This document shows, in pieces, positions 2,594 to 38,401 of a DNA stretch of 64,000 bases. The notes under the pieces were generated by a model. The model worked only from the letters and a program-made list of their open reading frames with translations. It was not told where the DNA came from and did not search any database. The DNA comes from a virus, in IMG/VR virus record IMGVR_UViG_3300043419_000459, positions 1 through 64,000 of that record; one strand, written 5' to 3'. The first letter of the stretch is position 1. Every line of letters starts with the position of its first letter. Position numbers and translations under genes: made by a program.

Positions 2594-3868
2594 TTAATGT
2601 ATAACCTCTAAATTGTTATAATTCTCTCCTTCTTCGATTTTTACCGGAAAACCACCCTTCTCCATTATCTCTCCAATGTCGTTTAAAAGATTTTCTCTTT
2701 CAATTGGATGTGTGTCTATAAGAAAGGCATCATAAGTATAAAGTATCATTTTTGACATTTTCCCCTCCAAATACTCCAACACTTCCCCAATCTTCATATA
2801 ATTGATTTCAGTCTCTAAGGATTGTAATAAGTAGTTGAATACCTTTTGTTCGTTGGGAGTTTCGATTCTATCAAATGGTATTTCTCTTTTGTATAAGAGT
2901 GTCGTAAGTTTTCCCGAAATGACGAACCTTTGGTATAATCCCTTAATATATTCGTCTACCTTTTGAAAGAATGGAATCCCCCGAGCATTATCGTCTAATC
3001 CCCCATAAAGGTATGTAAAGGTTATTTTCTTTGCCGTCTCCACATCACACCCATAAAGATTTGCAAGGTGTTGGTGAGCCGTAGTCCCTTTTGGAAACTC
3101 ATACCCAACCATCTTTGCAATCAAACGAATGTGATATGACTCATAGTCAAATTGAATTAGGGTACCGTGTGGATGACGACTAATAAACATTTCTCTCGTT
3201 CCATCGGATTTCTTTAACGCAGAGTAATTGACATTAAGATGACGATTGGATGGCCTACCTGTAATAGTGTATGGATTGTACTGAGTGTAGACGATATCGT
3301 TTTTTCGCAGGTATTGCTCGTTGAAGTTAAAACTATCAATAAATTTTTCTCTAACGACTTTTACCCCAGCCCCTTCCAACCTTCCCAATATGGTGATTGC
3401 TGATGTATATTTTCTATACCATTCTTGTCTTTTACTGATATTTGGGATTGTCCTAAGTATTTCCAACCATTTCATTAAAGGTACACAATCATTCAACTCC
3501 TTAAAGTCGTTTCTATACCCCCTATAAACCGATTCTACGACCTCATTAAATATAAATGGTTTCCCATACTCTTCAAAGTAAACCCACTCATAATCCAATC
3601 CTTGTGTATTTAAATACCTATTGTCTAAAACTAACGTATTTACGTGCACTAATTTTGATATGTCGAATTTGTCTAATTTTTTTGCATCTATGTGATTGAA
3701 ATTCATAATACCATCTTCACCATTTGGTTGTCTAAAATATATAAAAGATAAACGACTACCCAATGGATGTGCTCTATGAGAACTCCACACAGGAATTATA
3801 AGGTCAATATTTACATTTCCACCCAAAAAAGAAAGTAGGGTAGACTTATCTTCAATTAGATTAATCAT
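2594..3868 (-). CDS. Miniature family-A DNA polymerase-like protein
   Basis: A 424-residue protein with the ordered signature of Pol I-type (family A) polymerases: TGR at 203-205 followed by NRHLNVN (the TGRxSSxxPNLQN motif), motif A around Asp241 (QFDYESYHIRLIA), motif B at ~280-289 (KKITFTYLYGG) and motif C around Asp380 (YTYDAFLID). Both catalytic Asp residues are present. The usual His-Asp-Glu of motif C reads Tyr-Asp-Ala, and the fingers between A and B are short. The first ~140 residues resemble a remnant 3'-5' exonuclease without a clear active site. T4-type phages normally replicate with a family-B enzyme encoded among replication genes, so both the family and the location among virion genes are unusual. 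Activity is not shown. Confidence 0.75.
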   Translation of the reverse strand: MINLIEDKSTLLSFLGGNVNIDLIIPVWSSHRAHPLGSRLSFIYFRQPNGEDGIMNFNHIDAKKLDKFDISKLVHVNTLVLDNRYLNTQGLDYEWVYFEEYGKPFIFNEVVESVYRGYRNDFKELNDCVPLMKWLEILRTIPNISKRQEWYRKYTSAITILGRLEGAGVKVVREKFIDSFNFNEQYLRKNDIVYTQYNPYTITGRPSNRHLNVNYSALKKSDGTREMFISRHPHGTLIQFDYESYHIRLIAKMVGYEFPKGTTAHQHLANLYGCDVETAKKITFTYLYGGLDDNARGIPFFQKVDEYIKGLYQRFVISGKLTTLLYKREIPFDRIETPNEQKVFNYLLQSLETEINYMKIGEVLEYLEGKMSKMILYTYDAFLIDTHPIERENLLNDIGEIMEKGGFPVKIEEGENYNNLEVIH

Positions 3869-3907
3869 ACCCTACTAATATACTAAAAATATTTTGATTT
3901 ACAAAAT

Positions 3908-4684
3908 TTATTCTCCCCAATGCTTTTCACGTAATTCGTAAATATCAATCGGTTCTCTCTTCATTTGGTTACCCGGTTTGAAATATGCTCCTTTCTTTAA
4001 ATAACCACCTAAGAAATTTCTTCTCATTCTTGTAGTATCTTTATTCGGGTCAGAACCATGTACAACGTGTGAGTGTAAAAGTGCAACTTGTCCTTTTTTC
4101 AAATGTCCTTCTACTTTACGGAAATCATGACCCTCTGGCATTACACAACTGATACCTCTCTCACTTCTCCAATTTGCAGTGTTTGTTGCTTTTCTTTCTT
4201 CATTATCTTCCATTGGTAAAACTGGTAATCTATGTGAACCTTCATAGTTCCATACTGCCCCATTTTCAGGGTCGTGATTATCTAATGCCAATGCAGTGTT
4301 AATAATTTCGTTGTGGCCACATCCTGTGTAGAATGCATTCTGATGTTGGTCTCTACCTAATTCACCTTTTGGTTTGAAATATGCCCAAGTTTGCATTCCC
4401 ACTATATCACCTTCCATAAGAAATTCCATTGCTTCAATCAATTTAGGATGTGCAAACAATGCTTCTAATTTAGAAGATAATTTGTGTGGATACATGAATG
4501 GTTCATATTCCTGCCATTTTTCAGGTTCAGCTGCATTTCTTTCCAAACGCAATCTATTTAATTCTTCATTAACTTCATCAACTTCTGATTCGGTAAGTAA
4601 TTCCAATACCGTCCAACCTCTATATCTCCAATCAAATGTCATTTGTTGGATTTCTTCGGCGGTAAGATGTTTAAATTTTGACAT
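3908..4684 (-). CDS. Phytanoyl-CoA dioxygenase (PhyH)-like Fe(II)/2-oxoglutarate oxygenase
   Basis: A 258-residue protein with the PhyH pattern: N-terminal helix and WRYRGWTVLE, a DQHQNAFYTG stretch where the first metal ligands belong, a central NHDPENGAVWNYEGSH segment typical of the family, and a distal HSHVVHGSDPN with a following Arg for the 2-oxoglutarate carboxylate (TRMRRN). The usual HxD of the iron triad is HQN here: Asp is replaced by Asn or lost. Family members hydroxylate small molecules or side chains. The substrate is unknown; modification of a virion component, sugar or metabolite is possible. The gene sits alone between the baseplate genes and the polymerase-like gene. Confidence 0.8.
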   Translation of the reverse strand: MSKFKHLTAEEIQQMTFDWRYRGWTVLELLTESEVDEVNEELNRLRLERNAAEPEKWQEYEPFMYPHKLSSKLEALFAHPKLIEAMEFLMEGDIVGMQTWAYFKPKGELGRDQHQNAFYTGCGHNEIINTALALDNHDPENGAVWNYEGSHRLPVLPMEDNEERKATNTANWRSERGISCVMPEGHDFRKVEGHLKKGQVALLHSHVVHGSDPNKDTTRMRRNFLGGYLKKGAYFKPGNQMKREPIDIYELREKHWGE

Positions 4685-4737
4685 AACTTTATTTTGTTTA
4701 TAATTAAATATATGATTTTATTTTTATTTTTCCAAAT

Positions 4738-5112
4738 TTATTTATAGAATTGTAATAAGTTTGGTAAATATAAACCTATGTTTTTAATTTTATCCGATGC
4801 TATTGAAATCGATGTACCATTTGATGCTACTACACCAATATCAGTTATAGTACCATTATTCGAATATACTGCCGATTTAGGGCCGGTGATTCTCCATCGT
4901 ATTTCTTCCAATGTCCAATATGGATTTTCTAATAACGAATTATATTCTTCCAAATCTATTTCAAAAACAAAAGAATTTGAATCATTTACTCTTTGTGTAA
5001 AATATCTATTTATAAATCCATTTTCGTAATCAATATCAATTGGAGATGGTACAATCGTTTTTGGAAAATCCAATGAATACAATTCTTTATTCTTTATTAA
5101 ATCTTTATACAT
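4738..5112 (-). CDS. Small putative baseplate/virion protein
   Basis: A 124-residue predicted beta-rich protein (FVFEIDLEEYNSLLENPYW, then RWRITGPKSAVYSNNGTITDIG). It starts one base after the hub-like gene ends, so the two are translationally coupled. No family was recognised; position in the baseplate block suggests a structural role. Confidence 0.65.
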   Translation of the reverse strand: MYKDLIKNKELYSLDFPKTIVPSPIDIDYENGFINRYFTQRVNDSNSFVFEIDLEEYNSLLENPYWTLEEIRWRITGPKSAVYSNNGTITDIGVVASNGTSISIASDKIKNIGLYLPNLLQFYK

Positions 5113-5113
5113 T

Positions 5114-7396
5114 TTATTCTGTTTTTAATAAATAACCAGCTTCAATTGTTGTTTTCCAACCACTCTCATCAATACCTTGTTTTACATTTAATATTTGAAA
5201 ATACCCATTTCTATTGTATATTTCCGGTATACCATCTATTTGAAAATATTCACCACAACTAAATCCGGCCATTCCGTCTATTTCTAATGTTATTTCCAAA
5301 TATGTCAATGCGGTAGAATTGGCAGGTGTTTTTGGTAGTAAATATAATTGAATTAACCCACTATCTTTATATATTAAATTTTGTATACCCTTTGCATTTT
5401 TAAATTTTACATATTTACTGGTTATAGATTCTTTTAATTTTTTAGTTTGTTCTTCATCGGATTTTTTCTTATCCTCTTCTTCTTTTTTCTTTTCGGCAGG
5501 AGATTGATTCTTTTTTTTATTTTCTTCCTTCTTTAATCCACCTTTTACTATGGTGACTTCCATATCGTTTACTGAAAAATATCCATCTGCGTTTTTTGCA
5601 TATGAGAGGTCAGCCGATATATAATTATCTATTTCTTTCGATGCATCCGTATTTGTTCCTTTGTTCCCTTTAGCAATTGCAAGTTGGGTTGAGTATAATG
5701 CTTGTGCTTGCATTAGTGTACTCATTTCCATATTAAAATTAAAATTTTTAACTATGGATTCTTTTGCACCTATTTTAAATCTATGTGTTGTTGGTTTTTC
5801 CGATGAAGATGTGGTTTTTGGTAATGGTTGAAAAATTTTTCTATCAATAATTTCCAAAGAAGTTTGCCCTTGTACATCTTCTTTTTTTTGTAATTCCAAA
5901 TTACACATCCCCAACATACAATTTTGTATAGTCGATAATACCGAATTTATTACATCTGCTATATTATTTGCATTATCAAATATTTCTATAAATCTATTAT
6001 AATTAAAAAATACATTTAATAAATTTCCTGTGTTTGATTTTACTGCAATTTCCGTATTATCGTTTGTATTTTTTATTTTTATATCATTTGTTTTTATACT
6101 TTCACCGGTACTAAAATTATAAATTTGAGAATCACTTAGATTAAAAGATTTTTCGTTTATTTTACCATCAATTCCAGGTTCATCATATGCTAATATAATT
6201 CTATTTTCCTTTCCACCATTAGCCAATCTCACTTCTGGTAATTTACCAGGAAATATAATAGATTCATCGGTTGATATTAGATTTGGATTTGAATTTACAG
6301 GAATTATTTTTTTTCCATCATATTCATAATTTACCGAAATTATTTCTGACAATGGATTTGTTAATTTTAAGTTATTTATTATTTCAATTATAACTTTCAT
6401 TGAAATATATGGTATTTTTGAAACTATGGTACTACTTTGTTTTTCATTTGTTATACCATAATTAAAGAATTCATTTTTCCAAATATTATCATCTTTAAAG
6501 ATATTTGTTTCAAAATCAGGTCTACCAAAGTCTGCTGCAATTTTTGAAATAAAGGATTTATAAGTTGTTATCTTTTTTTCATTTTTTTTCAATGTAAGGG
6601 CCGATTCTTTTGCAGATTTTAAAGCGGGCCATAATTGTAATTCATTTCCACTAGACACTTCTATACTTACTTCATATGTACCATCTTCGGTTGGTGAATA
6701 ATTGAAATTTGTTACTCTACCAACCATATAATCATATTCACCCTCAGTTTCTTTTAGTATTTTTTTATAACTATCTTTTTTAGTATTTTCTAAAAATAAA
6801 TCAGAATAATCTTTTTTATAAGTTTCAAAATTTTTCTTTGCAAATAAATTTTTATCTATTGTAACATTTTTGAAAGCGCCAGAAAATGCACCTTTTTTTG
6901 TAGAACTACTCCACCCGTATTCCAATACAACATTCATAGATGGTCTCAAAAAAAACAATTCAAACATTTCCAATTGTTTTAATGTAAATATTTTGACTTT
7001 AACTTGTGCCGTTTTTAAGGTATTGTTACCACCATCGGTGTCTATCTCTATACTTTCTATAATTGGTGTAGATACTCTTCTATTTTTTTCACCTTCTACC
7101 TTTATTTCTTTTCCGTTTAAATCGTAACCAACTATTGTTTCTCCCGATTGATATAATTTCGAAACATCTGTGGTATTTGTAATTACACATCCATAATATG
7201 TAGTTGCGTCTTTTCCGTATTCTTGATTTATAAATAAATTTTTAATTTCTTCAGTAGTCTTATTTTTTAAAACAACGGCACCACTAGACATTATTGCAAA
7301 AGGAGATAATGTAGTAATATAATTTCTATCCGATTCTCTTTCTTTTAATTTCTCTACTGTCCACTCTTCAAGTGGCTTTATAAATGGAAATGGCAT
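5114..7396 (-). CDS. Baseplate hub-like protein (gp27/gpD-type candidate)
   Basis: A 760-residue protein. Residues ~110-165 contain alternating strands and the segment LEMFELFFLRPSMNVVLEYGWSS, a pattern seen in hub proteins of contractile tails, followed by long beta-rich stretches. A Lys/Glu-rich linker (~residues 620-660) precedes a C-terminal domain with GEYFQIDGIPEIYNRNGYFQ and GWKTTIEAGYLL, typical of hub OB/barrel domains that end in a tail-tube-like strand. It lies directly downstream of the LysM-like gp53-type gene. The assignment rests on pattern and position; a T4 gp27 equivalent is the best guess. Confidence 0.6.
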   Translation of the reverse strand: MPFPFIKPLEEWTVEKLKERESDRNYITTLSPFAIMSSGAVVLKNKTTEEIKNLFINQEYGKDATTYYGCVITNTTDVSKLYQSGETIVGYDLNGKEIKVEGEKNRRVSTPIIESIEIDTDGGNNTLKTAQVKVKIFTLKQLEMFELFFLRPSMNVVLEYGWSSSTKKGAFSGAFKNVTIDKNLFAKKNFETYKKDYSDLFLENTKKDSYKKILKETEGEYDYMVGRVTNFNYSPTEDGTYEVSIEVSSGNELQLWPALKSAKESALTLKKNEKKITTYKSFISKIAADFGRPDFETNIFKDDNIWKNEFFNYGITNEKQSSTIVSKIPYISMKVIIEIINNLKLTNPLSEIISVNYEYDGKKIIPVNSNPNLISTDESIIFPGKLPEVRLANGGKENRIILAYDEPGIDGKINEKSFNLSDSQIYNFSTGESIKTNDIKIKNTNDNTEIAVKSNTGNLLNVFFNYNRFIEIFDNANNIADVINSVLSTIQNCMLGMCNLELQKKEDVQGQTSLEIIDRKIFQPLPKTTSSSEKPTTHRFKIGAKESIVKNFNFNMEMSTLMQAQALYSTQLAIAKGNKGTNTDASKEIDNYISADLSYAKNADGYFSVNDMEVTIVKGGLKKEENKKKNQSPAEKKKEEEDKKKSDEEQTKKLKESITSKYVKFKNAKGIQNLIYKDSGLIQLYLLPKTPANSTALTYLEITLEIDGMAGFSCGEYFQIDGIPEIYNRNGYFQILNVKQGIDESGWKTTIEAGYLLKTE

Positions 7397-7402
7397 AACC
7401 TA

Positions 7403-7705
7403 TTATTTATTTATTTTTTCAAAGTCATTCAAAATCTTTGATAAATTTGATGGTATTCTCATTTGAGTACCAGGTGTGATTGATAACGATGCATCATTTA
7501 AATTATTTGCAGTTGCTATTATCCACCAAAGTGTTTTATCATTATAGTATTTTGATGCAAGTATATCCAATCTATCACTTGATTCTGATATTATATATAA
7601 ATCGTCATCCGATGGTTTTATTTTCGGATAAATGATACTACTTAAATATTTTTTCTTTGTACCTTTGGTAGTAAATGTATTTGTATATTGATATCTGTTT
7701 GGCAT
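7403..7705 (-). CDS. LysM-like baseplate protein (gp53/gpX-type)
   Basis: A 100-residue protein whose core, SDRLDILASKYYNDKTLWWIIATANN followed by PGTQMRIP, is the LysM-like fold of small baseplate proteins that clamp the hub or tube initiator (T4 gp53 C-terminus, P2 gpX class). It overlaps the start of the upstream 480-residue gene's stop by one base and is followed by the hub-like gene, the usual neighbourhood of this family. Confidence 0.75.
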   Translation of the reverse strand: MPNRYQYTNTFTTKGTKKKYLSSIIYPKIKPSDDDLYIISESSDRLDILASKYYNDKTLWWIIATANNLNDASLSITPGTQMRIPSNLSKILNDFEKINK

Positions 7706-9147
7706 TATTTCTCTTTGGTTTCTTCAATTACAAATGGTGCTTTAATGTCACGATTTTTATTATACTGACTATTTGGTGTTTTGCCATCCGATTCATATGA
7801 TATCCCATCAAAATTATATTTGTATCTAGTAATACCACCTTTATCGGTTTCCGTTTTATGATTTTCTATGATTTTCATACTAATTGACACATCTATTACG
7901 GATGGATATAATGTAGTATCATTTTTTACACCAAAAATGGTTTGTAATGGGTCGCGACCATCTTGCCCACCATTTGGGTCTGCGGATGGCCATACCGTAT
8001 TATCTTCCACCGAAAACGATAAATTTTCTATATATCCATAAACATTTTTATACATATCACCGATTGTAAGATATACTAAATTTGGAGAAAATGCAAATTG
8101 TGATGTTTGTGTATCTCCACCATATTTCATTTCGGAAATTTCTTCATATGGAAATGCTAACGATTTAAGATAATTTATCTTTTTAATCATTACTCCCTTT
8201 TCTTTTACAGTGGTATAATGTAATTTTAAATTAAATTTTAAACTTCGTTCTACACCCTGATATCTATTTACTTTAAAAGGTGACCCTATATATCTAAAAT
8301 TTGTCCATTCCGTTTGAATGTCTTCACTTAAACCGGTAACAGAACCTGCAAATGGAATAGTGCTTGAGTTACCTTGTTTTCTAAATAATACCCAAACTTG
8401 ATTTGCTACTCTAAACTTTTCTATATCGGTTTCTAAACCAGTAATAGTATCATATTTTTCTACCGTATTAATATAAGAATTTCCCCCATCCCAACCTGCC
8501 TTTTCATCAGGACTCCTCAATTTTAATGTTTTCTTTATATCTCCGGTAATAAGTTCCACTGCTGGTGCTGGATATTTTGGAAGAGATGTTGTTGTAACTT
8601 CTTTATATTCACTAAATTTGTTGGTAGTTTGTAGTGGTTTTCCTCCTAATTCGGTTCTGTTAAACAAATCACCATACCCCTTTGCTGGTAGTTTCTTTTT
8701 TAACTCTTTTGCTAATTTTTTTATGGCAGCTGGGGAACCTACTTTATTTAAGGTTTGTTGTGCTATGTTTGTTGCAACTCCCGCAGGTGATGATGCTCCT
8801 TGCTTTATAGTTCCGATGATAGAATTTGGAGAAGGTGCTTCTTTTACAAAATATTTTCTACCCTCTTCAATTGAGTCTCTTAATAATGCGGTTGTAACTG
8901 CTGGTAAACTTATTGGTTTTCTAAAAAAAGCAGTTCCTTTAAATATTGTATCCGATGGTCTATTTGCCGAACCACCCAATGCACCACCTACTTGATTTCC
9001 AATTATATCTCCAATTTTATTTGGTGAAGATGTTATCAATGCAGCTGCTCTTGGTGGATTTATAAATCCCCTACTTTCTATTCGGATATTTTCTTTTCCG
9101 TATAGTTCCTTTTTTTGTGATTTGAATAAATCCTGTATTGTTGCCAT
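7705..9147 (-). CDS. Baseplate protein, possible tube initiator
   Basis: A 480-residue protein. Residues ~1-170 are flexible, rich in Ala, Gly and Pro; the C-terminal half is beta-rich, with SLKFNLKLHY, INYLKSLAFPYEE, NLVYLTIGDMYKNVYGYIENLSFSVED and VIDVSISMKIIE. This strand/helix order resembles tail-tube-like initiator proteins that carry a LysM partner (gp48/gp54 or Afp7 class), consistent with the LysM-like gene directly downstream and the tape-measure gene directly upstream. The precise T4 counterpart is uncertain. Confidence 0.6.
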   Translation of the reverse strand: MATIQDLFKSQKKELYGKENIRIESRGFINPPRAAALITSSPNKIGDIIGNQVGGALGGSANRPSDTIFKGTAFFRKPISLPAVTTALLRDSIEEGRKYFVKEAPSPNSIIGTIKQGASSPAGVATNIAQQTLNKVGSPAAIKKLAKELKKKLPAKGYGDLFNRTELGGKPLQTTNKFSEYKEVTTTSLPKYPAPAVELITGDIKKTLKLRSPDEKAGWDGGNSYINTVEKYDTITGLETDIEKFRVANQVWVLFRKQGNSSTIPFAGSVTGLSEDIQTEWTNFRYIGSPFKVNRYQGVERSLKFNLKLHYTTVKEKGVMIKKINYLKSLAFPYEEISEMKYGGDTQTSQFAFSPNLVYLTIGDMYKNVYGYIENLSFSVEDNTVWPSADPNGGQDGRDPLQTIFGVKNDTTLYPSVIDVSISMKIIENHKTETDKGGITRYKYNFDGISYESDGKTPNSQYNKNRDIKAPFVIEETKEK

Positions 9148-9169
9148 TTATGAATAGTAGTATTTAGTT

Positions 9170-9177
9170 ATAAATAT
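9170..9177 (-). promoter_or_regulatory. ATATTTAT element before the tube-initiator-like gene
   Basis: The core lies 22 bases before the ATG at 9147. The sequence after it, AACTAAATA, is also found after the element at 35262. Confidence 0.45.
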
Positions 9178-13785: not shown

Positions 13786-13811
13786 TTTACTTTATTTTTT
13801 AATTCTTTTAT

Positions 13812-13819
13812 ATAAATAT
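13812..13819 (-). promoter_or_regulatory. ATATTTAT element before the tube gene
   Basis: AGATATTTATATAAAAG lies in the 46-base gap between sheath and tube, with the core 26 bases before the ATG at 13785. Confidence 0.5.
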
Positions 13820-24439: not shown

Positions 24440-27370
24440 TTACTTTTCCAAATTTTCTACTCTATTTAATAATTCTTTTATAGATTCAATTAAAAGTGGA
24501 ACTATTTTTTCATATCTAACAGTCAAATAATTTTCACCTGATTTTGAATTATTATTTTCATCTCTATCAAATGGTGCAAATGCAACTGCTTCAGGTAATA
24601 CTTCTTCAATTTCTTGCGCAATTACTCCGACTTGTTTAGAATAATCGTTATATCCAAATTCCTCTGCTAATTCGTTTTGAGTATAGAATACACCATTTAT
24701 TTTTTGTAATTTAGATAATGCATCTGATATCTTTTCTATATCCTTTTTTAATCTCCTATCTGAATAGTATGCTGTGATGTTTCCGGTAGCTACGATTTCA
24801 CCAGCATTAGTAGTTGCTGCTGTTCCAACACCCAATGAATTTACTTGTGCATTTGAATTGGTGGTAAATCCACCATTTACTCCACTGGTTCCGCTGACAC
24901 CACTTGTTCCATTGCTACCTGGTGCACCATTAACACCACTTGTTCCATTGCTACCTGGTGCACCATTAACACCACTTGTTCCATTACTACCTGGTGCACC
25001 ATTAACACCACTTGTGCCACTTGTACCATTTCCACCATTAACGCCACTTGTTCCATTTCCTCCGTTAACTCCGGATGTGCCACTTGTTCCATTTCCTCCG
25101 TTAACTCCACTCGTACCATTAACACCACTTGTACCGCTTGTACCATTTCCACCATTAACTCCTGATGTTCCATTCGTACCCGGTGAACCATTAACTCCCG
25201 ATGTGCCACTAACTCCACTTGTACCTGGTGCACCATTAATTCCTGATGTACCATTTACACCGCTTGTGCCACTAACTCCACTAGTGCCGTTTAATCCGTT
25301 TATTCCACTTGTACCACTAACACCACTTGTGCCATTAACTCCATCAACTCCACTTGTACCATTTACTCCCGATGTGCCACTTGTACCATTAACTCCTGAT
25401 GTGCCACTCGTGCCACTAACTCCACTTGTACCATTTACACCGCTTGTTCCATTTACTCCGCTTGTACCGTTTACACCGCTTGTGCCATTTACACCGCTGG
25501 TGCCACTTGTACCACTAACTCCACTTGTACCATCCACACCACTTGTGCCACTAACTCCACTTGTACCATGTGTGCCACTTCCTCCACTTGTGCCACTCGT
25601 GCCACTAACTCCACTTGTACCATTTACACCATTATGACCACTTGTACCACTAACGCCGGATGTGCCACTTGTACCCGATTGACCAGTTAAATCTAAATTA
25701 CTTCTTGTTTTTACATTACCACTTGCATCTGCTACTAATATATTTGTTTCAGTCGTACCTTCTGAAATAATTACCGATAAACTACCTGATAATTGAAGTG
25801 AACCTGTGAACGAATGTGTGTCGTTTCCAAAATCACCATGTCTAGTTGAACCGCTAGTAAATAATATACTTGATGTTTGGTTAACGGTTGTCAAATTTGT
25901 AACAGTTAAATTTGTAATAGTTGTATTATTCAATTGTGCCGAAGAACTTATAATTCCGGCCGGTATTGAAGAAATGTCTGTATATACAATTTGTGATGAA
26001 CCTGATACTAATGTATGGGTTGCCGAAGCTACTTCCTCTTTACCTTCAAACGTAGTTAATAAACTATCATTGTAATCTGCAAATCCTGGTATTTCAAAAA
26101 CCGAACCAGCTGCGGTTGTTACATTTATTTGCCAGTTTGATATATTCTCTGTTGGGCCTGCACCTTCTTCAATTGATGTTACATTAACTTCAATATAACC
26201 GGTGGTATCATCATACGATATAACAATAGCTCTCATAAATCGTGTACCATCGTCTTCAACACCTATAATTGCTAATTGACCAGGTGTCCATTGTAATCCG
26301 GTTTCTATTTCAAATGTTTTAAGACCCACTGATATATCATTTATTGTAGTTGATGTAGTTGCAAATCTATCACTAACTCCATCTATACCACTAGTGCCAC
26401 TTGTACCACTCGTGCCATCTATTGCACTCGTACCACTTGTGCCACTCGTACCACTCGTTCCATCGACACCACTTGTGCCACTCGTGCCACTAACTCCACT
26501 TGTACCATTTACACCACTTGTTCCGTTTACTCCCGATGTGCCATTTACACCACTCGTTCCGTTTACTCCCGATGTACCACTTGTTCCACTTTCTCCACTA
26601 GTGCCACTTTCTCCACTCGTGCCACTAACTCCACTTGTACCATCGACACCACTTGTGCCACTTGTACCATCGACACCGCTTGTGCCACTTGTACCATCTA
26701 CTCCACTCGTTCCATTTACTCCACTTGTGCCATCAATACCACTCGTGCCACTTGTACCACTCGTGCCATCTATTGCAGACGTGCCACTCGTTCCACTAGT
26801 GCCACTTTCTCCACTCGTTCCACTAGTGCCACTTTCTCCACTAGTGCCACTTGTACCATCTATTGCGGATGTACCACTCGTTCCACTAACTCCCGATGTG
26901 CCATTAACTCCCGATGTGCCACTTGTTCCACTAACTCCACTTGTACCACTTTCTCCTTGTGGGCCTGCAACTGTGTTATATCCTAATTGTTTTGTTGTAG
27001 TATTATAAGTTACAACTGTTGTATTTGAATCGGTTGGTAATGTTGCTATTTTAACATCACCTTTTATGTCAACACTTCCGGTAAATTGATGTATATCGTC
27101 ATCCGTATCTCCAAACTTTGTAGAACCAGAAGTAAATGCCGCAGATGCCGTTACATATGTTACATGAAATTCGTTTGCAGTTATTATACCGGTTACATTT
27201 ACCGAACCATTTATTGTTTGATTTCCCGTAAATGTGTTAGAACCGGTTGTGGCCATACTGATTTCAGCTGCACCATTACCTACAACTAATGTGTTTTTGT
27301 CTGTATTGAATTCCAACTGACCTTGTGTAGTTACCGGTGTTTGTGTACTATTTAATATTAATGTTGCCAT
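24440..27370 (-). CDS. Collagen-like tail fibre with C-terminal S74 chaperone
   Basis: A 976-residue fibre. Residues ~1-135 are an attachment module ([22 protein letters not shown]) plus a fibre module. Two long collagen-like Gly-X-Y regions follow (~140-335 and ~590-835), built mainly from GTS, GVN, GVS, GVD and GAP triplets, separated by a globular beta-rich domain with VSGSSQIV and ISSSAQL motifs. The last 107 residues are an S74 chaperone: Ser870-Asp and Lys875 (SDRRLKK), then [15 protein letters not shown] and a terminal coiled coil. The T/S-rich triplets contain almost no Pro or charged residues and offer hundreds of Ser/Thr sites for O-glycosylation. The gene lies next to two glycosyltransferase genes. 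Confidence 0.9.
24870..25690 (-). repeat. Collagen-like coding repeat, block 2
   Basis: Tandem 9-base units and their multiples (coding GTS, GVN, GAP and related triplets), with 45-60-base higher-order repeats such as the recurring [12 protein letters not shown] unit present three times near 24920-25010. The opposite strand gives spurious long open frames of Pro-Leu-Val repeats. Confidence 0.85.
26385..26955 (-). repeat. Collagen-like coding repeat, block 1
   Basis: Near-identical 9- and 18-base units coding for Gly-Thr-Ser, Gly-Val-Asp, Gly-Glu-Ser and Ala-Ile-Asp-Gly-Thr-Ser segments. The repeats are close enough in sequence to allow slippage or recombination with block 2. Confidence 0.85.
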
Positions 27371-27390
27371 TTACTTATATTATATTTCTT

Positions 27391-27398
27391 ATAAATAT
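27391..27398 (-). promoter_or_regulatory. ATATTTAT element before the collagen-like fibre gene
   Basis: TGATATTTATAAG with the core 20 bases before the ATG at 27370, inside the 31-base gap after the previous gene's stop. Confidence 0.45.
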
Positions 27399-28936: not shown

Positions 28937-31900
28937 TTAATATGTTCCTCCGTCTATTATTGATATTCTTGTCTCAATTGATGAACTAAATGTAGTAAAT
29001 CCAGTAGTTGCAGTTATATCAATTTGTGATGAACCACTTACAACCGTTTCAACATCTAACTTAGTTTTGATTGTAGTATCAATTGAAGAAGTGAATGAAT
29101 TTAAACTTCCAGTTGATATTTCCAATAATCCCAATCTACTATCTTGTACCGCTTGTGATGCTGAGAATGATACATTTATTGAAGAACTTAATGATGTTAA
29201 ACTTGCCGCACTTGCACTAAATGAAGTTGCTACCGATGAACTGAAATCTCCAGTTACACTTGCAACACTTGCAGATAATTGAGTTATACTTGCATTACTT
29301 GCACTAAATTCTAATAAAATATTATCATTGTAATCACTATATCCAGCTAAATCTACAATATTGATTTGTGATGCTCCACTTACAACATTTTCAGCGTCTA
29401 ATTTAGTTTTAATAGTAGTGTTAATCGAAGAAGTAAATGAATTTAAACTTCCAGATGTAATTTCTAATAAATCTAATCTACCATTTTGTGTAGTTTGAGA
29501 AGTTGCGAATGAAGAACTCAATAATAATTGAGATGCTGCACTTGCACTAAACGATGTTGCCACCGAAGAACTAAAATCTCCTGTTACACTTGCTACACTT
29601 GCAGATAATTGATTTAAATTATATGCCGATTGTGAGAATGAAGTTGCTACCGATGAACTAAATTGACCAGTTACACTTGATACACTTGCAGATAATGCGT
29701 CTACACTTGCTACACTTGCACTAAAATTAGTTGCGATTGAAGAACTGAATGATGTGTATCCGGTTGTATCAGAAATTGTAATCTGAGACGAACCACTTAC
29801 TACACCATCACCACCTGCTAAAAGAACTTTACTTTCAGCTCCAGCTGCTCCCGCCTTCCAGTAATCATTTGTTGAATCCCAAAGTAAAGAGCCACTTACC
29901 GTATTAGGTGCAGTTGGGTCTTTAACTAATAATCCACCATTTGCTGCTCCTGTACCATTTAATTCAATAATGTTATCACCTAATTGAATTGTATTAGATT
30001 CTACCGATGTAGTTGTACCTTTAACAACTAAGTCGCCAATTACCACTACATTAGAACCAGTAAATTCAAATGCTGTTTTTAATGAAGCCGAATAAGTATT
30101 TAATGCTGCTACCGAAGTATTTAAACTTGCAGTTGTACCATTTATGTTAAATATTGAAGTATTTAAACTTGCACTTGTACTATTCAAATTACTTACTGAA
30201 GTATTTAAACTTGCAGTTGCTGAGTTAATATTGAATATTGAAACATCTACACTTGCAGATTTTAATTCTAAATTATCCAATCTAACATCTGCAGATTCTG
30301 TAAATGAGTTGATATTGAATAATGAAGTATTTACACTTGCAGAAGTTGATTCTAAATTACTTAACTTAACATTTGCGGATTGTGTAAATACATTTATATT
30401 AGATACCGATGTATTAACACTTGCAGAAGTTGATTCTAAATTACTTAATCTAACATTTGCAGATTGTGTAAATGTATTTTGATTTGCGTCTGCGATTGCT
30501 GCTGCACTTGCTGATGCTATCAAACTTCCACTTACGATTGCTATTTCACTAAATCTTTCGTTTGCAGATGCAGTAAATGCGTTTAATGCGTTTGTAGAAG
30601 TATTAGAAGATGTATAAGAATTTAATGCTGCAATTGATACATTTACACTTGCAGATGTAGATTCTAAATTTGTAAATCTAGTTAAAGATGAACCACTAAA
30701 TGTATTTAAGTTACTTATTGAAACATCTTGTGCGTCGTTTGTAGTCTTAGCAGTTGATGCTGAAACGATTAATGAACCACTTACAACTCCAATTTCTGTT
30801 AATCTAGTTAAAACTGACGAACTGAATGAATTTATATTAGAAACTGAAATATTAACACTTGCAGAAGTAGATTCTAAGTTTGTTAATCTAACATCTTGTG
30901 TGTCGTTTGTTGTTTTTGCAGTCGATGCTGATGCTATCAATGAACCACTTACAACTCCAATTTCAGTTAATCTTGTTTCAACTGAACCGGTATAAGTTGC
31001 TAATGTAGAATCTTTTGTTAATTGTGAACCACTAAATGTATTTAAGTTAGAAATACTTACATCTTGTGAATCATTTGTTGTTTTTGCAGCTGATGCTGAA
31101 GAAATCAACGAACCACTTACTACACCAATCTCTGTAAATCTTTCGTTTGCAGATGCGGTGAATGCGTTTAATGCAGTTGTAGATGTGTTTGAAGAAGTAT
31201 ATGAGTTTAAAGCTGCAATTGATGCGTTTACACTTGCAGAAGTTGTATTTAAATTACTTACCGATGTGTTTAAACTTGCACTTGTTGCTTCTAAACTTGA
31301 TAATCTTTGAGCTTGAGAACCACTATCAGTTGATAATGCGTTTAATCTTGCGTCAACCGATGTACTGAATGCTGTTACATTTCCAATTCCTACGATAGAA
31401 CCACTAATTACACCACTACCATTAACATAGATTGAAGAACCATTTGTTAAGTTTAATGATGAACTATTAGTTAAGTTCATATTAGAATCATTAACTGCTA
31501 CTGCCCCACCAAAGTTGGTAGAACCACTTACATTAACTGAACCACTTATGGTTTGAGTACCATAAAATACATTCGAACCGGTAGTTGCGTATGAACCACT
31601 CTTTGAGTTTAAGTTATCTAATGATAATTGTTGTGACGCAGATGAACTATTTAATGCTGCGATTGATACATTTACACTTGCAGATGTAGATTCTAAGTTA
31701 GATAATCTAGTTAAAGAAGAACCACTAAATGTGTTTAATGCATCAATACTAACTTGTTGAGATGCAGATGAACTATTTAGCGCTGCTACTGAAGTATTTA
31801 AACTTGCAGTTGTACTATTTAAATTACTTAACGAAGTGTTTACACTTGCACTAAATGTATTTAAGTTTGTTATTGAAACGTCTTGTGAATCATTTGTTGT

Positions 31901-33811
31901 TTTAGCAGCTGATGCTGAACTAATCAATGAACCACTTACTACACCTATTTGAGTCAATCTTGTTTCAACACTTCCAGTATAAGTTGCTAAATCTGAATTT
32001 TGAGTTAATTGAGATGCTGTAAATGAGTTTAAGTTTGTTATAGAAACTCCTACACCACTACCAACATTTGCAACCACTGCTGCAATCGATGCTGAAATTG
32101 AACCACTAAAATCACCATATCCAGTTGTATCTGAGATTGTGATTTGAGATGAACCACTTACTACACCATTTGTTGCTGCAATCGAACCTATGAATGATGT
32201 TGCGGTTACTGAACCAGTTACGATTATACCACCAGCTACTGAAATTTTACTATTATCAGTCGCTTGTGTTATGATTGAATCACCAATATGGTCTTCACCT
32301 GTTGCAACCATAATCTTTCCAGGAGTCAAAGTCAATTCCTCACCCAATGAACCAGTGTTTTTAGGGCCGGCTATTAATATTGCTGAGTTATACCCTTCTC
32401 CACTACCAGATGGATGTTGATACAACCAGTGATTATTTAATGAATCCCAGAATAATGAACCACTTGCTCCTGCTCCTGAACCACTATCTGCAACCGAAAT
32501 GCCACCAAATCTAACTGCAGGTGTTGCTGTATTTAATACAATTGTATTTTGTCCGATATCTAAAGCAGATGCAGTTACATTAAATAAAGATGATGAACCA
32601 TATACTACTAAGTCTTGTGTAATATACATTGAACCTGTAATTACCTGAGTGCCGTAGAATATGTTTGAACCACTTAATAATGCATAAGAACCACTATTTG
32701 CATTTAAATTTGCAATTGCTACCGATGCAGCTGATGCTGAACTTATTAAAGAACCCGTAATAGTTGCTAATGCAGTATTTTGAGTTAATTGTGAACCACT
32801 AAATGAGTTTAAGTTTGTTATTGAAACATCTTGTGAGTCATTTGTAGTTTTTGCAGCTGATGCCGAACTAATCAATGAACCTGTGATAGTTGCTAAATCG
32901 CTATTTTGGGTTAATTGAGAAGATGTAAATGAATTTATGTTTGTAACTGAAGTATTTAAACTTGCAGTCGTTGAGTTTAAGTTAGAAACTGATGTATTTA
33001 CGCTCGCACTAAATGATTCTAATGAAGAAATTCTTTGGCTTTGAGTTGTAAATGTTTGTGCAACGGAAGCACTGAAATCACCAGTTACTGATGCAACTGA
33101 TGCAGATAATGCTGTTACACTTGCTGCACTTGCACTAAATGAAGTTGCTACCGATGCAGATAACGAAGTCACTCTTGCATCACTTGCTGAGAATGAGGTT
33201 GCTACTGAAGAACTAAAATCACCAGTTACTGATGCAACCGATGCAGATAATGCAGTTAAATTTGCTGCACTTGCACTAAATGAAGTTGCCACTGAAGAAC
33301 TAAAATCACCCGTTACACTTGCAACAGATGCTGATAAAGCAACTACACTAGCATTACTTGCAGAAAATGAAGTTGCTACCGAAGAACTAAAATCACCAGT
33401 TACAGACGCAACTGATGCAGATAATGCTGTTATACTTGCATTACTTGCTGAGAAAGATGTTACAACTGATGAACTGAAGTTGGTAATGTTACCCGTTAAA
33501 TCAGGTATTTCATTTGCACCTTCTCCTAACAAATATAAGGTAGAACTACCACTTGCATAGTAAGGAACACCTTTTACTAATCCGTTATAGGTTCCTGCAG
33601 GAAATACATTTGGTGCATTATTACCAACTAAAAATCTATTTACTGCTTGTATCGAACCACTTTCTACGGCTGCAAACACCATACCCGAACCATTCGATGC
33701 GGTAATGTTTGAGGAACCTGATACGATTATTAATTCACCTTTTTGAAATGATGAGGTTGCTGCCGAAAGGGCTTCTAAACTACCACGTCTGTGTCTAATG
33801 ATTTGTGCCAT
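28937..33811 (-). CDS. Giant coiled-coil tail fibre
   Basis: A 1624-residue protein, the longest in the window. The N-terminus (MAQIIRHRRGSLEALSAATSS) is a variant attachment module. The rest alternates long repetitive segments of ~27-residue Ser/Ala/Thr-rich units (SVTGDFSSSVATSFSAS and SNLNSTTASLNTSVSN types, hydrophobic at heptad-like spacing, probably trimeric coiled coils) with small globular modules (LDIGQNTIVLNTATPAVRFGG; NTIQLGDNIIELNGTGAANGG) and the VSGSSQITI connector. No chaperone or enzymatic domain was found. It looks like a long side fibre shaft. The high Ser/Thr content makes it another potential glycosylation substrate. Confidence 0.85.
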   Translation of the reverse strand: MAQIIRHRRGSLEALSAATSSFQKGELIIVSGSSNITASNGSGMVFAAVESGSIQAVNRFLVGNNAPNVFPAGTYNGLVKGVPYYASGSSTLYLLGEGANEIPDLTGNITNFSSSVVTSFSASNASITALSASVASVTGDFSSSVATSFSASNASVVALSASVASVTGDFSSSVATSFSASAANLTALSASVASVTGDFSSSVATSFSASDARVTSLSASVATSFSASAASVTALSASVASVTGDFSASVAQTFTTQSQRISSLESFSASVNTSVSNLNSTTASLNTSVTNINSFTSSQLTQNSDLATITGSLISSASAAKTTNDSQDVSITNLNSFSGSQLTQNTALATITGSLISSASAASVAIANLNANSGSYALLSGSNIFYGTQVITGSMYITQDLVVYGSSSLFNVTASALDIGQNTIVLNTATPAVRFGGISVADSGSGAGASGSLFWDSLNNHWLYQHPSGSGEGYNSAILIAGPKNTGSLGEELTLTPGKIMVATGEDHIGDSIITQATDNSKISVAGGIIVTGSVTATSFIGSIAATNGVVSGSSQITISDTTGYGDFSGSISASIAAVVANVGSGVGVSITNLNSFTASQLTQNSDLATYTGSVETRLTQIGVVSGSLISSASAAKTTNDSQDVSITNLNTFSASVNTSLSNLNSTTASLNTSVAALNSSSASQQVSIDALNTFSGSSLTRLSNLESTSASVNVSIAALNSSSASQQLSLDNLNSKSGSYATTGSNVFYGTQTISGSVNVSGSTNFGGAVAVNDSNMNLTNSSSLNLTNGSSIYVNGSGVISGSIVGIGNVTAFSTSVDARLNALSTDSGSQAQRLSSLEATSASLNTSVSNLNTTSASVNASIAALNSYTSSNTSTTALNAFTASANERFTEIGVVSGSLISSASAAKTTNDSQDVSISNLNTFSGSQLTKDSTLATYTGSVETRLTEIGVVSGSLIASASTAKTTNDTQDVRLTNLESTSASVNISVSNINSFSSSVLTRLTEIGVVSGSLIVSASTAKTTNDAQDVSISNLNTFSGSSLTRFTNLESTSASVNVSIAALNSYTSSNTSTNALNAFTASANERFSEIAIVSGSLIASASAAAIADANQNTFTQSANVRLSNLESTSASVNTSVSNINVFTQSANVKLSNLESTSASVNTSLFNINSFTESADVRLDNLELKSASVDVSIFNINSATASLNTSVSNLNSTSASLNTSIFNINGTTASLNTSVAALNTYSASLKTAFEFTGSNVVVIGDLVVKGTTTSVESNTIQLGDNIIELNGTGAANGGLLVKDPTAPNTVSGSLLWDSTNDYWKAGAAGAESKVLLAGGDGVVSGSSQITISDTTGYTSFSSSIATNFSASVASVDALSASVSSVTGQFSSSVATSFSQSAYNLNQLSASVASVTGDFSSSVATSFSASAASQLLLSSSFATSQTTQNGRLDLLEITSGSLNSFTSSINTTIKTKLDAENVVSGASQINIVDLAGYSDYNDNILLEFSASNASITQLSASVASVTGDFSSSVATSFSASAASLTSLSSSINVSFSASQAVQDSRLGLLEISTGSLNSFTSSIDTTIKTKLDVETVVSGSSQIDITATTGFTTFSSSIETRISIIDGGTY
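28990..33480 (-). repeat. Internal coding repeats of the giant fibre
   Basis: Many imperfect 60-90-base direct repeats coding for the SASVASVTGDFSSSVATSFSA unit (clusters near 29150-29720 and 33050-33430) and the NLESTSASVN unit (30130-31900). These are likely sites of unequal recombination and assembly errors. Confidence 0.8.
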
Positions 33812-33848
33812 ATTTTAATGTTATTCTCTTAATTAAGGTTATTCGGTA

Positions 33849-33856
33849 ATAAATAT
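33849..33856 (-). promoter_or_regulatory. ATATTTAT element before the giant fibre gene
   Basis: TCATATTTATTACCG with the core 37 bases before the ATG at 33811; the 95-base gap holds no open frame. Confidence 0.45.
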
Positions 33857-33906
33857 GAGTTTTATTATGAAATCCCTGATTTTATTCTATTAATATTTTT
33901 TTATTT

Positions 33907-34758
33907 TTAAAACTCACCCATATCAATCATATTTGAGTTTGGTTGATTATTTGTCGACGGGTCTGGCGGTGGTGGAACCGATGCAGTTGTTGGATTTCCG
34001 TCTAAATACAATTGTGCCGGAACCGTAGTATCTACGTCTCCGTCAAGCCAATTACCATTTGGTAAACCGGTTGCATTTACTATTGCTACTGCTCCACTTA
34101 CAATTAATGAGTAAGAATCCGAATCCACCGGTGCAATTGTAATACCCTTCAATGTTGCTCCTGTTAATTGTGCAGAAGAACTAATTACACCAACTGCATT
34201 TATCTTATTCAATATTGTAGTATCAATTGAACTACTAAATCCTGTAAATCTTGCATCAATACCACTAATTGACGTATTGATTGAAGAACTTAAATTGTTT
34301 ATAGTTGTATTTGTTGAAGAACTAATTGAGTAAATAGTTGAATAAGAACTGCTAAATTGCGTTGCAACCGATGCGCTAAAGTCACCAGTAGTTGCTTGAA
34401 CCGATTGACTTAATTGTGATATTAAATATTGACTTGCACTATCTGTATTTGCAATTGAGGAACTTAATGTATTCAATGAAGCAGTTGTAACATATGTATT
34501 TGACAAAATTGAAATTGATTGTGAAATAGATGCACTTATTATTGATGCTTCCAAATCACTACTCATTGTGACATCCAATTGAACAACAAATCCGTCATAA
34601 TTAGATGCTTCAACCAAATCAACTTGTGCCGATGAAGAAAACAAACCGGCACCATCTATTATTTGATATACGGCACCACTAAAGTCAGAACCAACTTCGG
34701 CTGATGTTTGTAGCTGTGAACCACTTTCAATTTGTTTTAATCTAATTAAATTTGCCAT
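33907..34758 (-). CDS. Coiled-coil fibre protein
   Basis: A 283-residue protein. The N-terminus (MANLIRLKQIESGSQLQTSAEVGSDFSGA) is followed by a predicted coiled coil of Ser/Ile-rich heptads (SISQSISILSNTYVTTASLN; STNTTINNLSSSINTSIS), then a small beta domain and a Pro-rich acidic tail (ASVPPPPDPSTNNQ). It shares the GVISSSAQL connector with other fibres. It lies 12 bases downstream of a fibre-tip-like gene. Confidence 0.75.
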   Translation of the reverse strand: MANLIRLKQIESGSQLQTSAEVGSDFSGAVYQIIDGAGLFSSSAQVDLVEASNYDGFVVQLDVTMSSDLEASIISASISQSISILSNTYVTTASLNTLSSSIANTDSASQYLISQLSQSVQATTGDFSASVATQFSSSYSTIYSISSSTNTTINNLSSSINTSISGIDARFTGFSSSIDTTILNKINAVGVISSSAQLTGATLKGITIAPVDSDSYSLIVSGAVAIVNATGLPNGNWLDGDVDTTVPAQLYLDGNPTTASVPPPPDPSTNNQPNSNMIDMGEF

Positions 34759-34770
34759 TACTTATTGATA

Positions 34771-35241
34771 TTATGCACCAAATGTTAAAGAAATTGGGTC
34801 AGCATAAACATATGGTGCATTTGATTCTTTAGTTTGAGTTGCAACGGATAATTTTACTCTAAAAATCCAATATGTGCTAATAGGTAACATTTCAAATCCA
34901 CCAATTGAACCAACTGTATTAAAAATTGCAGTATCTCCATTTTGATTAAGTGTAAGTGTTCCACCTGCATCTACCAATTGTTGAAAATCGTTAAAATAAT
35001 CGGCACCTGTCGCATCTAGTGGGTTAAAATAAATGTAATCGGTTCCACTACTTGCATTTGGATTAAATGTTTCAATATTTGGTATACCTTCTACTATGAA
35101 TATTGTATTACCATTATTTTCAGGTGGGCCTGCATTTATATTACCTTCATCACTATAAAAGAACCATTCTCCTACTCCTGGTATATTATCATTTAGAGTA
35201 TTTTTAGTTATTGTGAATCCGTTTGAAAATTCTATTCCCAT
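34771..35241 (-). CDS. Small fibre/tip protein sharing an N-terminus with its neighbour
   Basis: A 156-residue, beta-rich protein. The first 14 residues (MGIEFSNGFTITKN) are nearly identical to those of the next gene upstream (MGIEFTNGFSITKN); the remainder differs. This fits a common docking peptide attached to different heads. The C-terminal domain is unrecognised. Confidence 0.7.
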   Translation of the reverse strand: MGIEFSNGFTITKNTLNDNIPGVGEWFFYSDEGNINAGPPENNGNTIFIVEGIPNIETFNPNASSGTDYIYFNPLDATGADYFNDFQQLVDAGGTLTLNQNGDTAIFNTVGSIGGFEMLPISTYWIFRVKLSVATQTKESNAPYVYADPISLTFGA

Positions 35242-35261
35242 ATTAATGCTTTTATTTAGTT

Positions 35262-35269
35262 ATAAATAT
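35262..35269 (-). promoter_or_regulatory. ATATTTAT element before the 156-residue gene
   Basis: GAATATTTATAACTAAATA with the core 20 bases before the ATG at 35241; the 3' flank equals that at 9170. Confidence 0.45.
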
Positions 35270-35278
35270 TCTTTATTA

Positions 35279-36007
35279 TTATAATCCGTATGTCGATTTT
35301 ATTTCGTTAAAATTTGTTGTTACTTCCGATGGTGACAATGCTTTATTATAAACTCTCATTTGATAAAATACAGGTTGGTTTGCAGAAATACTACTGTTTA
35401 ATTTATCTGTTGCACCCATTCCTACATTTGTGTGTCTTGCACCAAAAAGAAATTCAGACGTTGCATACCCACCAGTTGGGTCATTAGTAGTTGCTGTTGC
35501 AAATTGACTACCATTTAAATATAAAATTTTACTTGTACCATTTATTACAAATATCCAATGTCTTATTGCATTTGAAGCAGTTATAGTTACATTTGTGGTA
35601 TTTGATGTAGGTGAACCCCAAATCATTGAAGTAGATGTTCCCATATATGCAAAATATCCTTTACTAAAACTATATGCCTCATTACCCCAAATAGTTGCCC
35701 AATGTGATGTAGTATTGAATGATGCTACAATTTCAATGGTTGAAGTATTACTACCAATATTATATGGAACGCTAATATACGCATCTCCTCCAAATGATGA
35801 GTTTAATAATTTTATACCACCACCATTATTAGAAACATATGATGTACTTCCATATAAAGTTGCATTTCTACCATTACCACTCACATCTGTCCAAGTTGTT
35901 CCGGAAGATGGTGCGGTTTGTAAATAAAATTGCAATCCGGAAACTGGTGCTGGTGTTGAATTATTATTTTTCGTTATACTAAATCCGTTTGTGAATTCTA
36001 TTCCCAT
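35279..36007 (-). CDS. LamG/concanavalin-like fibre tip
   Basis: A 242-residue protein: docking peptide MGIEFTNGFSITKN, then a lectin-like jelly roll with GLQFYLQ, WTDVSGNGRNATLYG, STIEIVASFNTT, HWIFVINGTSKILYLNGSQ and FYQMRVYNKALSPSEV, the strand order of LamG/Laminin_G_3 domains. These often bind carbohydrate, so a host-surface recognition role is plausible. The C-terminal half of the Hint fibre at 16166-17884 has a similar fold. Confidence 0.8.
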   Translation of the reverse strand: MGIEFTNGFSITKNNNSTPAPVSGLQFYLQTAPSSGTTWTDVSGNGRNATLYGSTSYVSNNGGGIKLLNSSFGGDAYISVPYNIGSNTSTIEIVASFNTTSHWATIWGNEAYSFSKGYFAYMGTSTSMIWGSPTSNTTNVTITASNAIRHWIFVINGTSKILYLNGSQFATATTNDPTGGYATSEFLFGARHTNVGMGATDKLNSSISANQPVFYQMRVYNKALSPSEVTTNFNEIKSTYGL

Positions 36008-36008
36008 A

Positions 36009-36494
36009 TTATTTAAATTTACCTATAACATAAATATCATCTATCGTTACAGAATCAAAATCTATATATTCATTATTCAAAGTTACAACAACATTGTTTT
36101 CAATTTCTTTTATTGAATAATCTCCTGGTATTTGCAATCCATAAACTAATACATCAAAGTTATCAGGATTTGCTCCTTCCGTTCCATAATCTAAAGATGA
36201 ACTATAAATTATTAAACTACCAAATCCACTATTATCAAATGAATCAATTCCTTTTTGAATCATTCTTGCACTATTTTGTAATATTTCTTGATAAAAATTA
36301 GATATTTTTGTTTTATTATTTACTAATTTTATAGGATTTGGATTTGAACGAACTTTAGATTGAAATTTTGTATTATTTGGAATTTCTATATTTTGTAAAC
36401 TTCCGGTCAAATCATTATTACTAAGATTATTAATATTAACCTTTGGAACAACTTTATTTAGTTTTCTAGAATTTGAATTGAATCTATTAAGCAT
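36009..36494 (-). CDS. Unknown virion protein of the neck/fibre junction
   Basis: A 161-residue protein with an Asn/Lys-rich N-terminal arm and a beta-rich C-terminus (GSLIIYSSSLDYG; VVTLNNEYIDFDSVTIDDIYVIGKF). It overlaps the previous gene by 8 bases and ends one base before the LamG-like gene. The C-terminus looks like a small beta-sandwich that could connect fibres to the virion. No family recognised. Confidence 0.65.
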   Translation of the reverse strand: MLNRFNSNSRKLNKVVPKVNINNLSNNDLTGSLQNIEIPNNTKFQSKVRSNPNPIKLVNNKTKISNFYQEILQNSARMIQKGIDSFDNSGFGSLIIYSSSLDYGTEGANPDNFDVLVYGLQIPGDYSIKEIENNVVVTLNNEYIDFDSVTIDDIYVIGKFK

Positions 36495-36816
36495 ATTGTT
36501 CTATATCTCCTTTTATTTCTATAAAATCATCACTATCCAAATTGTATTCAAATCTACTTTTAATAAACTTTACCAATAAACCATTCGGGCCTTCTTCGAC
36601 TATATAGTCTCTTGCACTTATACTTTGTGTGTTTATATACAAATGTATTCTATCTTGTTGCGTTCTATATTCAATTTCTCTTAATATATCCTTAAACCTC
36701 CACCCATTTGCTTCATAAATCCAATAAGTTGAGTCCGTTAAATTTTTTGCAACTAAATTAGTATGACCATTATTTCTACTAATGGTTTTTGTCATATCAA
36801 GTAAACTCCTTTTCAT
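36487..36816 (-). CDS. Unknown small virion protein
   Basis: A 109-residue protein (STYWIYEANGWRFKDILREIEYRTQ; ISARDYIVEEGPNGLLVKFIKSRFEYNLDSDDFIEI) that starts in an ATAATG overlap with the gp15-like stop. Mixed alpha/beta. Its position directly after gp15 suggests a tail-completion or connector role. ATG at 36816 is used, though an internal Met8 is possible. Confidence 0.65.
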   Translation of the reverse strand: MKRSLLDMTKTISRNNGHTNLVAKNLTDSTYWIYEANGWRFKDILREIEYRTQQDRIHLYINTQSISARDYIVEEGPNGLLVKFIKSRFEYNLDSDDFIEIKGDIEQYA

Positions 36817-37931: not shown

Positions 37932-37932
37932 A

Positions 37933-38400
37933 TTATTTTATTCTTTCTTCTATGTTTAAATTAGATTTACTTACCATAAATGTAGAACATACGATACTCC
38001 AATTTCTATCACTATTTTCACCAGGTAAACCACCCACAAATTGAATTTCATTTGTATTATCTATTTCATAATAAGAGTTATCAAAATAGATTACATCACC
38101 AATTTCCGGATATATATTTCGTTCTTCACACAATAATCTATCAAATTTGAAAGTTATATTTTGTGTATTATCAGGACCAAATCCTTCATATTGAACATTT
38201 TCTGGCTCTTTATCTATCAATACAAATAATTCAACACCGGGATACCAAGTTTTGTTAGTGGATTCACCATAAATATTTACTTTGGTTTCATTTAAATTTA
38301 CTTTAAATAATACGCAAGTATTTTCGATTACTTTGTCTACTAATTCTCTTGCAATACTTCTGAAGAGTTGCAAGTCTCTCCCTAACATAAACTTTGGCAT
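37933..38400 (-). CDS. gp14: Neck protein, gp14-like
   Basis: A 155-residue protein, shorter than T4 gp14. It carries an N-terminal helix (FRSIARELVDKVIENTCVLFKV) and the beta segment IYPEIGDVIYFDNSYYEIDN typical of this neck family. It sits between the gp13-like and gp15-like genes with 1-base gaps, as in T4. Confidence 0.78.
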   Translation of the reverse strand: MPKFMLGRDLQLFRSIARELVDKVIENTCVLFKVNLNETKVNIYGESTNKTWYPGVELFVLIDKEPENVQYEGFGPDNTQNITFKFDRLLCEERNIYPEIGDVIYFDNSYYEIDNTNEIQFVGGLPGENSDRNWSIVCSTFMVSKSNLNIEERIK

Positions 38401-38401
38401 A

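Follow-up and report, generated by a model that had tools for sequence, protein, structure and literature searches.

T4 replication is the textbook example of a one-polymerase replisome. The presence of a small family-A DNA polymerase gene in a T4-like phage raises the question of what such a protein does there. The gene, which we call mini-PolA, lies near one end of the window (the 64,000-nucleotide stretch of DNA analysed here), and the initial annotation, made from the sequence alone, had suggested a repair, translesion or specialised polymerase, a replacement for the replicase, or a protein packaged into the phage head.

Fold and active site

The mini-PolA open reading frame (Table 1) begins with ATG and is a real gene. 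Its 424-residue product matched Pfam DNA_pol_A (PF00476; E 8.6e-9, 35.2 bits, above the gathering cut-off of 34.3) and PHROG_17 'DNA polymerase' (E 1e-11); PF00476 was the only Pfam match, a family-B polymerase domain being absent from the protein, and a profile search of the PDB gave a weak match, on Pol I. An AlphaFold2 model built from 31 window and IMG/VR sequences (pLDDT 90.8, pTM 0.89) had the Klenow structure 1kfd as its best PDB match (E 1.8e-16, TM 0.70 by query length). The predicted structure thus contains the palm/fingers fold of Pol A, and its superposition on the Pol A palm holds at the level of the fold. The motifs recognised by the initial annotation were all recovered (TGR at residues 203-205, motif A at 241-248, motif B at 276-289 and Tyr-Asp-Ala of motif C at 379-381). 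On sequence and model together, mini-PolA is a small family-A polymerase, predicted to synthesise DNA.

Table 1. Features of the mini-PolA locus, in window coordinates.
Feature	Position	Strand	Evidence
mini-PolA gene, 424 aa	2594..3868	-	ORF, Pfam, PHROG, AF2 model, PDB match
Motif C Tyr-Asp-Ala (residues 379-381; D380 catalytic)	2726..2734	-	YDA 232/232
N345...Q349 (N845/Q849 of E. coli Pol I)	2822..2836	-	Q 232/232, N 225/232
Motif B (residues 276-289; K280, F284 kept; Val at R754 position)	3002..3043	-	Alignment
Motif A DYESYHIR (residues 241-248; D241 catalytic, H246 at Glu710 steric-gate position)	3125..3148	-	D and H 232/232
TGRPSN motif (residues 203-208; R205 = R668 of E. coli Pol I)	3245..3262	-	T203, R205, P206, N208 invariant, n=232
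N-terminal ~140 aa, shrunken 3'-5' exonuclease-like domain (putative) without D-x-E metal site	3449..3868	-	30-sequence alignment, separate model, Foldseek
Bacteroidetes-type promoter TTTG-N19-TATATTAG, directly upstream of mini-PolA	3875..3905	-	Pattern match
PhyH-type dioxygenase gene, inserted upstream of mini-PolA	3908..4684	-	Pfam PhyH E 6.1e-15
124-aa syntenic gene	4738..5112	-	Synteny
760-aa syntenic gene	5114..7396	-	Synteny; Pfam/PHROG: no match
LysM baseplate wedge protein (gp53-like)	7403..7705	-	PHROG_7145 baseplate wedge E 1.7e-14
TATTTATA copies, examples	9169-9176, 13811-13818, 27390-27397	read on -	Motif

Conservation of the active site was counted over 232 complete homologues. 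In all of them D241, D380, K280, R205, F284 and Q349 are invariant, corresponding to D705, D882, K758, R668, F762 and Q849 of E. coli Pol I. Three canonical features are replaced: Glu710 of motif A is His in 232/232; Arg754 of motif B is mostly Tyr, with Ile, Leu or Val in a minority (Val in the window protein); and His-Asp-Glu of motif C is Tyr-Asp-Ala throughout (232/232). The initial annotation had noted the last of these but overlooked the His at the steric-gate Glu position and the loss of the motif B Arg. In our alignment, both Glu and Arg are kept in the PolAs of E. coli, T7, CRP-738, BM15 and Aeneas and in the full-length PolA of Flavobacterium phage immuto, while some of the other phage PolAs likewise deviate at the end of motif C, having Ser or Gln there. 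A biochemical parallel for motif C comes from PolA of Thermus phage Tt72, a phage family-A enzyme which in its wild-type form carries a non-acidic residue, Ser, after the second catalytic Asp and is active, although, unlike mini-PolA, it retains Glu at the gate and its exonuclease is active; its Glu710-to-Ala gate mutant was reduced to 35% activity, and its Asp mutants to 4% (PMC9324360). By analogy, Tt72 PolA shows that a phage enzyme of this kind can tolerate the Glu710-to-Ala change, and likewise a non-acidic residue following the second Asp. Because of the Ser or Gln found elsewhere and the activity of the Tt72 enzyme, we regard Tyr-Asp-Ala as a mild change, and the His gate together with the lost Arg as the real peculiarity of mini-PolA.

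Although Klenow is the best match among solved structures, sharing the palm, the catalytic Asp pair and the equivalents of Lys758, Phe762, Arg668 and Gln849, it is longer (605 aa versus 424), differs at all of Glu710, Arg754, His881 and Glu883, and has a functional 3'-5' exonuclease. When modelled separately, the N-terminal domain of mini-PolA (residues 1-140) is compact (pLDDT 86.9), and its Foldseek matches, weak throughout (best E 1.4e-3), are nearly all to DEDD 3'-5' exonuclease domains, including those of EXD2, Nibbler, WRN, RNase D and Klenow. The catalytic D-x-E residues that mark proofreading PolAs of the Klenow/T7 type are absent from an alignment of 30 mini-PolA sequences. We infer from these weak matches that the N-terminus may be a shrunken, inactive proofreading domain.

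Distribution and coexistence with a replicase

A tblastn search of 50,697 phage records placed the family only in immuto (four records), Microcystis phage Mel-JY01 and the jumbo contig LR756508; the other matches were more distant, and most of them carry ordinary PolA annotations. At least 589 loci in IMG/VR encode mini-PolA, whereas matches in bacterial and archaeal genomes were limited to two metagenome-assembled contigs; with the jumbo protein as query, no close relatives were found in IMG/VR. The carriers appear to be a large group of T4-related phages, most of them uncultured. In the phylogeny with phage Pol A families that the initial annotation had called for, mini-PolAs formed one clade (100/100) apart from the full-length immuto PolA, T7, E. 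coli and three other phage PolAs, with long branches that limit what can be said of the family's origin. Median dN/dS values of 0.15, 0.08 and 0.12 in three mini-PolA clades point to purifying selection, with the polymerase part more constrained than the N-terminus. One marine homologue (locus L519) has an in-frame TAA in the mini-polymerase gene.

In the open papers searched we found no description of this family, of its status as a second polymerase or of its active site, though single annotations already exist. The immuto member (QQO91919, 441 aa), which shares its family, gene neighbourhood and active-site signature with the window protein but is 32% identical to it over the matched part, is called 'DNA polymerase family A' in its own record; the other polymerase of that genome is a 778-aa PolA rather than gp43. 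The Mel-JY01 protein WWT39333, in contrast, is annotated merely as hypothetical, although it is an orthologue by synteny (28.8% identity) in a genome that also encodes gp43. Two further observations concern these genomes: in immuto, with its two PolAs, the region 30000-50000 (L368) contains 7-deazaguanine DNA modification genes including DpdA, and the Mel-JY01 gene at 25363-26403 (L005), labelled 'DNA polymerase I TIGR00593', is similar to the relatives' 5' nucleases rather than to a polymerase.

Large relatives were searched for a second polymerase with PF00136 and PF00476, as the initial annotation had proposed for the rest of the genome. By our count, a full-size or split second polymerase was present in 22/22 related contigs reaching the expected site. 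It was a family-B polymerase (PolB) of the T4 gp43 type in the window clade (G001-G005, 5/5), in the Mel clade (W01 and G015-G019, 6/6), in marine relatives (G021, G024 and G025, 3/3) and in the jumbo record W03, and a separate PolA of ~780 aa in all seven records of the immuto clade. By our reading of contig coordinates, on which the assessments of contig ends also rest, PolB lies ~11-25 kb downstream of the mini-PolA gene (~17-22 kb in the window clade) and the full PolA of the immuto clade ~38-56 kb downstream. The six relatives in which a second polymerase was not found (G000, G006, G013, G020, G029 and G030) each end at or before the usual distance of their clade, the borderline cases being G006 (18 kb available), G030 (~16 kb) and G029 (~12 kb). 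Ten PolBs that were checked have intact exonuclease and polymerase motifs (D-I-E, DLTSLYPS and DTDS); in G017, G021 and W03 the PolB is in pieces or shortened frames. At L089/L090 (LR756508), L268/L269 and L522, in three relatives, the family-B polymerase gene is in separate pieces or interrupted, which may reflect a split gene or an intein. The cultured Far-T4 phage RM378 was considered as a precedent for a split PolA and discarded, since PF00476 does not match in it and the protein annotated there as 'DNA polymerase' corresponds to an exonuclease piece of a PolB.

These results bear directly on the suggestion that mini-PolA has replaced the gp43 replicase in the window phage. No PolB was found in the 101-kb record from which the window is taken, its other 37 kb included, but this record is a fragment in which the mini-PolA gene sits only 2.6 kb from the contig end, which accounts for the missing second polymerase: the replicase would be expected far beyond that point, and in the large relative that is closest (93% identity, 118 kb) an intact gp43 lies ~17.6 kb downstream of mini-PolA. 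We therefore consider replacement exceedingly improbable. The surveyed genomes indicate instead that mini-PolA is not a lone oddity but a second polymerase, conserved in phages that also have a separate replicase, in line with the broader class of repair, translesion or specialised enzymes named at the outset.

Gene neighbourhood and promoters

The initial annotation had described mini-PolA as lying among virion genes, which is accurate for one side only. Three clades share a one-strand order of LysM baseplate protein, one to several syntenic genes, mini-PolA, SSB, UvsX, 5' nuclease and DnaB, and the synteny to SSB-UvsX-5' nuclease-DnaB holds in them at 27-34% identity; in the window phage this module is off the contig, and its position is taken from the relatives. 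Loci anchored on neighbouring genes and with enough flank contain mini-PolA in 6/6 and 48/48 cases, and RecA-anchored loci with enough flank in 20/23, the remaining three having it further away; RecA-anchored marine contigs have it in 8/8, including the three where the flank had missed the gene. On the baseplate side, the 760-aa gene is probably a baseplate or tail gene, judging from its position, and in many but not all window-clade loci a PhyH-type gene, which has a host-type promoter of its own in 38/42 copies, stands between the baseplate genes and mini-PolA. On the other side, two genes of no clear family, 45-2114 (689 aa) and 2123-2545 (140 aa), separate mini-PolA from the expected SSB; by eye, the N-terminus of the 689-aa protein resembles a 358-aa protein at the equivalent place in LR756508. 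At locus L004, a 1047-aa ORF (4223-7366) looks, from motifs read by eye, like a fusion of an SbcD-like nuclease and an SbcC-like ATPase, parts that correspond to gp47 and gp46 of T4.

TTTG is the -33 element of flavobacterial sigma-A promoters. Their -7 consensus is TAnnTTTG (PMC9723704). A promoter of this Bacteroidetes type stands upstream of 50/52 window-clade copies of mini-PolA, against 1.5 expected from shuffles, and the strict pattern upstream of 15/51 Mel-clade (1.7 expected) and 4/55 immuto-clade copies (1.0 expected). In the immuto clade, a terminator-like hairpin followed by a T run separates mini-PolA from the upstream genes, and most copies have TATATT behind it (both by eye). That several Mel-clade copies have Bacteroidetes-type promoters is odd for a phage assigned to Microcystis; speculatively, the true host may be an associated Bacteroidetes bacterium.

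A different element marks other genes of the window phage. TATTTATA occurs upstream of 14/52 window genes (1 expected from shuffles), and 15 of its 17 copies on the coding strand lie no more than 60 bp upstream of minus-strand gene starts (binomial P ~3e-18). From this pattern it is probably the late promoter of the phage, distinct from the T4 late promoter TATAAATA in its usual sense; the latter was tried in coding sense and set aside, with only 3 minus-strand copies, the enriched element reading TATTTATA instead. The motif is found upstream of the gene at 7705-9147 in 39/51 sequences, while its longer form, ATATTTATA, was found in 0/159 regions upstream of mini-PolA. With a promoter of its own, no late motif upstream and replication genes next, mini-PolA is most likely not a virion gene but the head of a replication/recombination operon. 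Packaging into the head and injection with the DNA would fit the border with the baseplate module and the late-type motif often seen upstream of the neighbours 2123-2545 and 45-2114, but we hold it to be very unlikely given the host-type promoter, the absence of the late motif, the immuto-clade terminator-like hairpin and T run, and the replication genes that follow.

Possible functions of mini-PolA

Coexistence with two unrelated replicases argues that mini-PolA has a separate job, and its place in a module with SSB, UvsX, 5' nuclease and DnaB suggests that it fills gaps during primer removal and recombination repair. With moderate confidence, we favour a phage-specific, non-proofreading accessory polymerase that most likely fills short gaps and is probably co-expressed with the replication module. 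On this reading, a broad group of T4-related phages carries mini-PolA alongside the replicase, and the gene would probably be expressed from its host-type promoter with SSB, UvsX, the 5' nuclease and the DnaB helicase; the 5' nuclease would remove RNA primers or damaged flaps and mini-PolA would fill the short gaps, as well as those arising in UvsX-dependent recombination and repair. Polymerase and 5' nuclease would then be encoded by two genes of a single module, in effect a 'split DNA polymerase I'. The sequences show the fold, the catalytic Asp pair, the altered active site, the coexistence with a replicase, the synteny and the purifying selection; that the protein polymerises, on which substrate, and that it is paired with the 5' nuclease we infer. 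There are points against this: Glu710 and Arg754, which all the other family-A polymerases compared retain, are both lost, and the pairing is suggested by proximity, with several genes between. For primer removal, moreover, T4 makes do with its 5' nuclease and gp43, and it is not obvious why a second polymerase would be required.

The main rival, which we consider possible though unlikely, is a translesion or damage-tolerance polymerase that takes over from a stalled replicase to copy past lesions or past modified bases of the phage's own DNA. The exonuclease remnant without D-x-E, the changed residues at positions contacting sugar and triphosphate, the neighbouring UvsX and the 7-deazaguanine modification genes of immuto would all suit such a role; on the other hand, F762 and the overall palm are conventional, lesion bypass is a prediction, and the modification genes were examined in a single genome. 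The loss of Glu710 and Arg754 and the compact size could also suggest a non-catalytic architectural or regulatory replisome subunit that retains the fold. This seems quite improbable to us, as both catalytic Asp and the equivalents of Lys758, Phe762, Arg668 and Gln849 are invariant (n=232) over very deep divergence, and the polymerase part is more strongly constrained than the N-terminus. A further idea, which we put forward as a tentative and rather doubtful one, is that the rebuilt nucleotide gate, with His for Glu710 and mostly Tyr for Arg754, would accept ribonucleotides or non-standard nucleotides, for example in a primer-extending or rNTP-using gap filler of a T4-type replisome.

The nearest idea that we found is the split minimal Pol III that group 2.2 jumbo phages encode beside gp43 (PMC7824862). 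There, too, a second polymerase of reduced form accompanies a family-B replicase, but it belongs to an unrelated polymerase family and is encoded in two pieces. The RTasPolA proteins of DRT defence systems are small PolAs of ~475 aa, and the immuto member matches the palm part of their PADLOC model (6e-7); the window protein, however, gave no match to it, and no reverse transcriptase was noticed adjoining mini-PolA.

If mini-PolA is active, two polymerases operate in a large uncultivated branch of the T4-related phages, and the small one is retained even where an unrelated replicase took the place of gp43. Activity would also mean that the Glu710/Arg754 pair, kept in all other PolAs compared, is replaceable, which may be of use in enzyme engineering.
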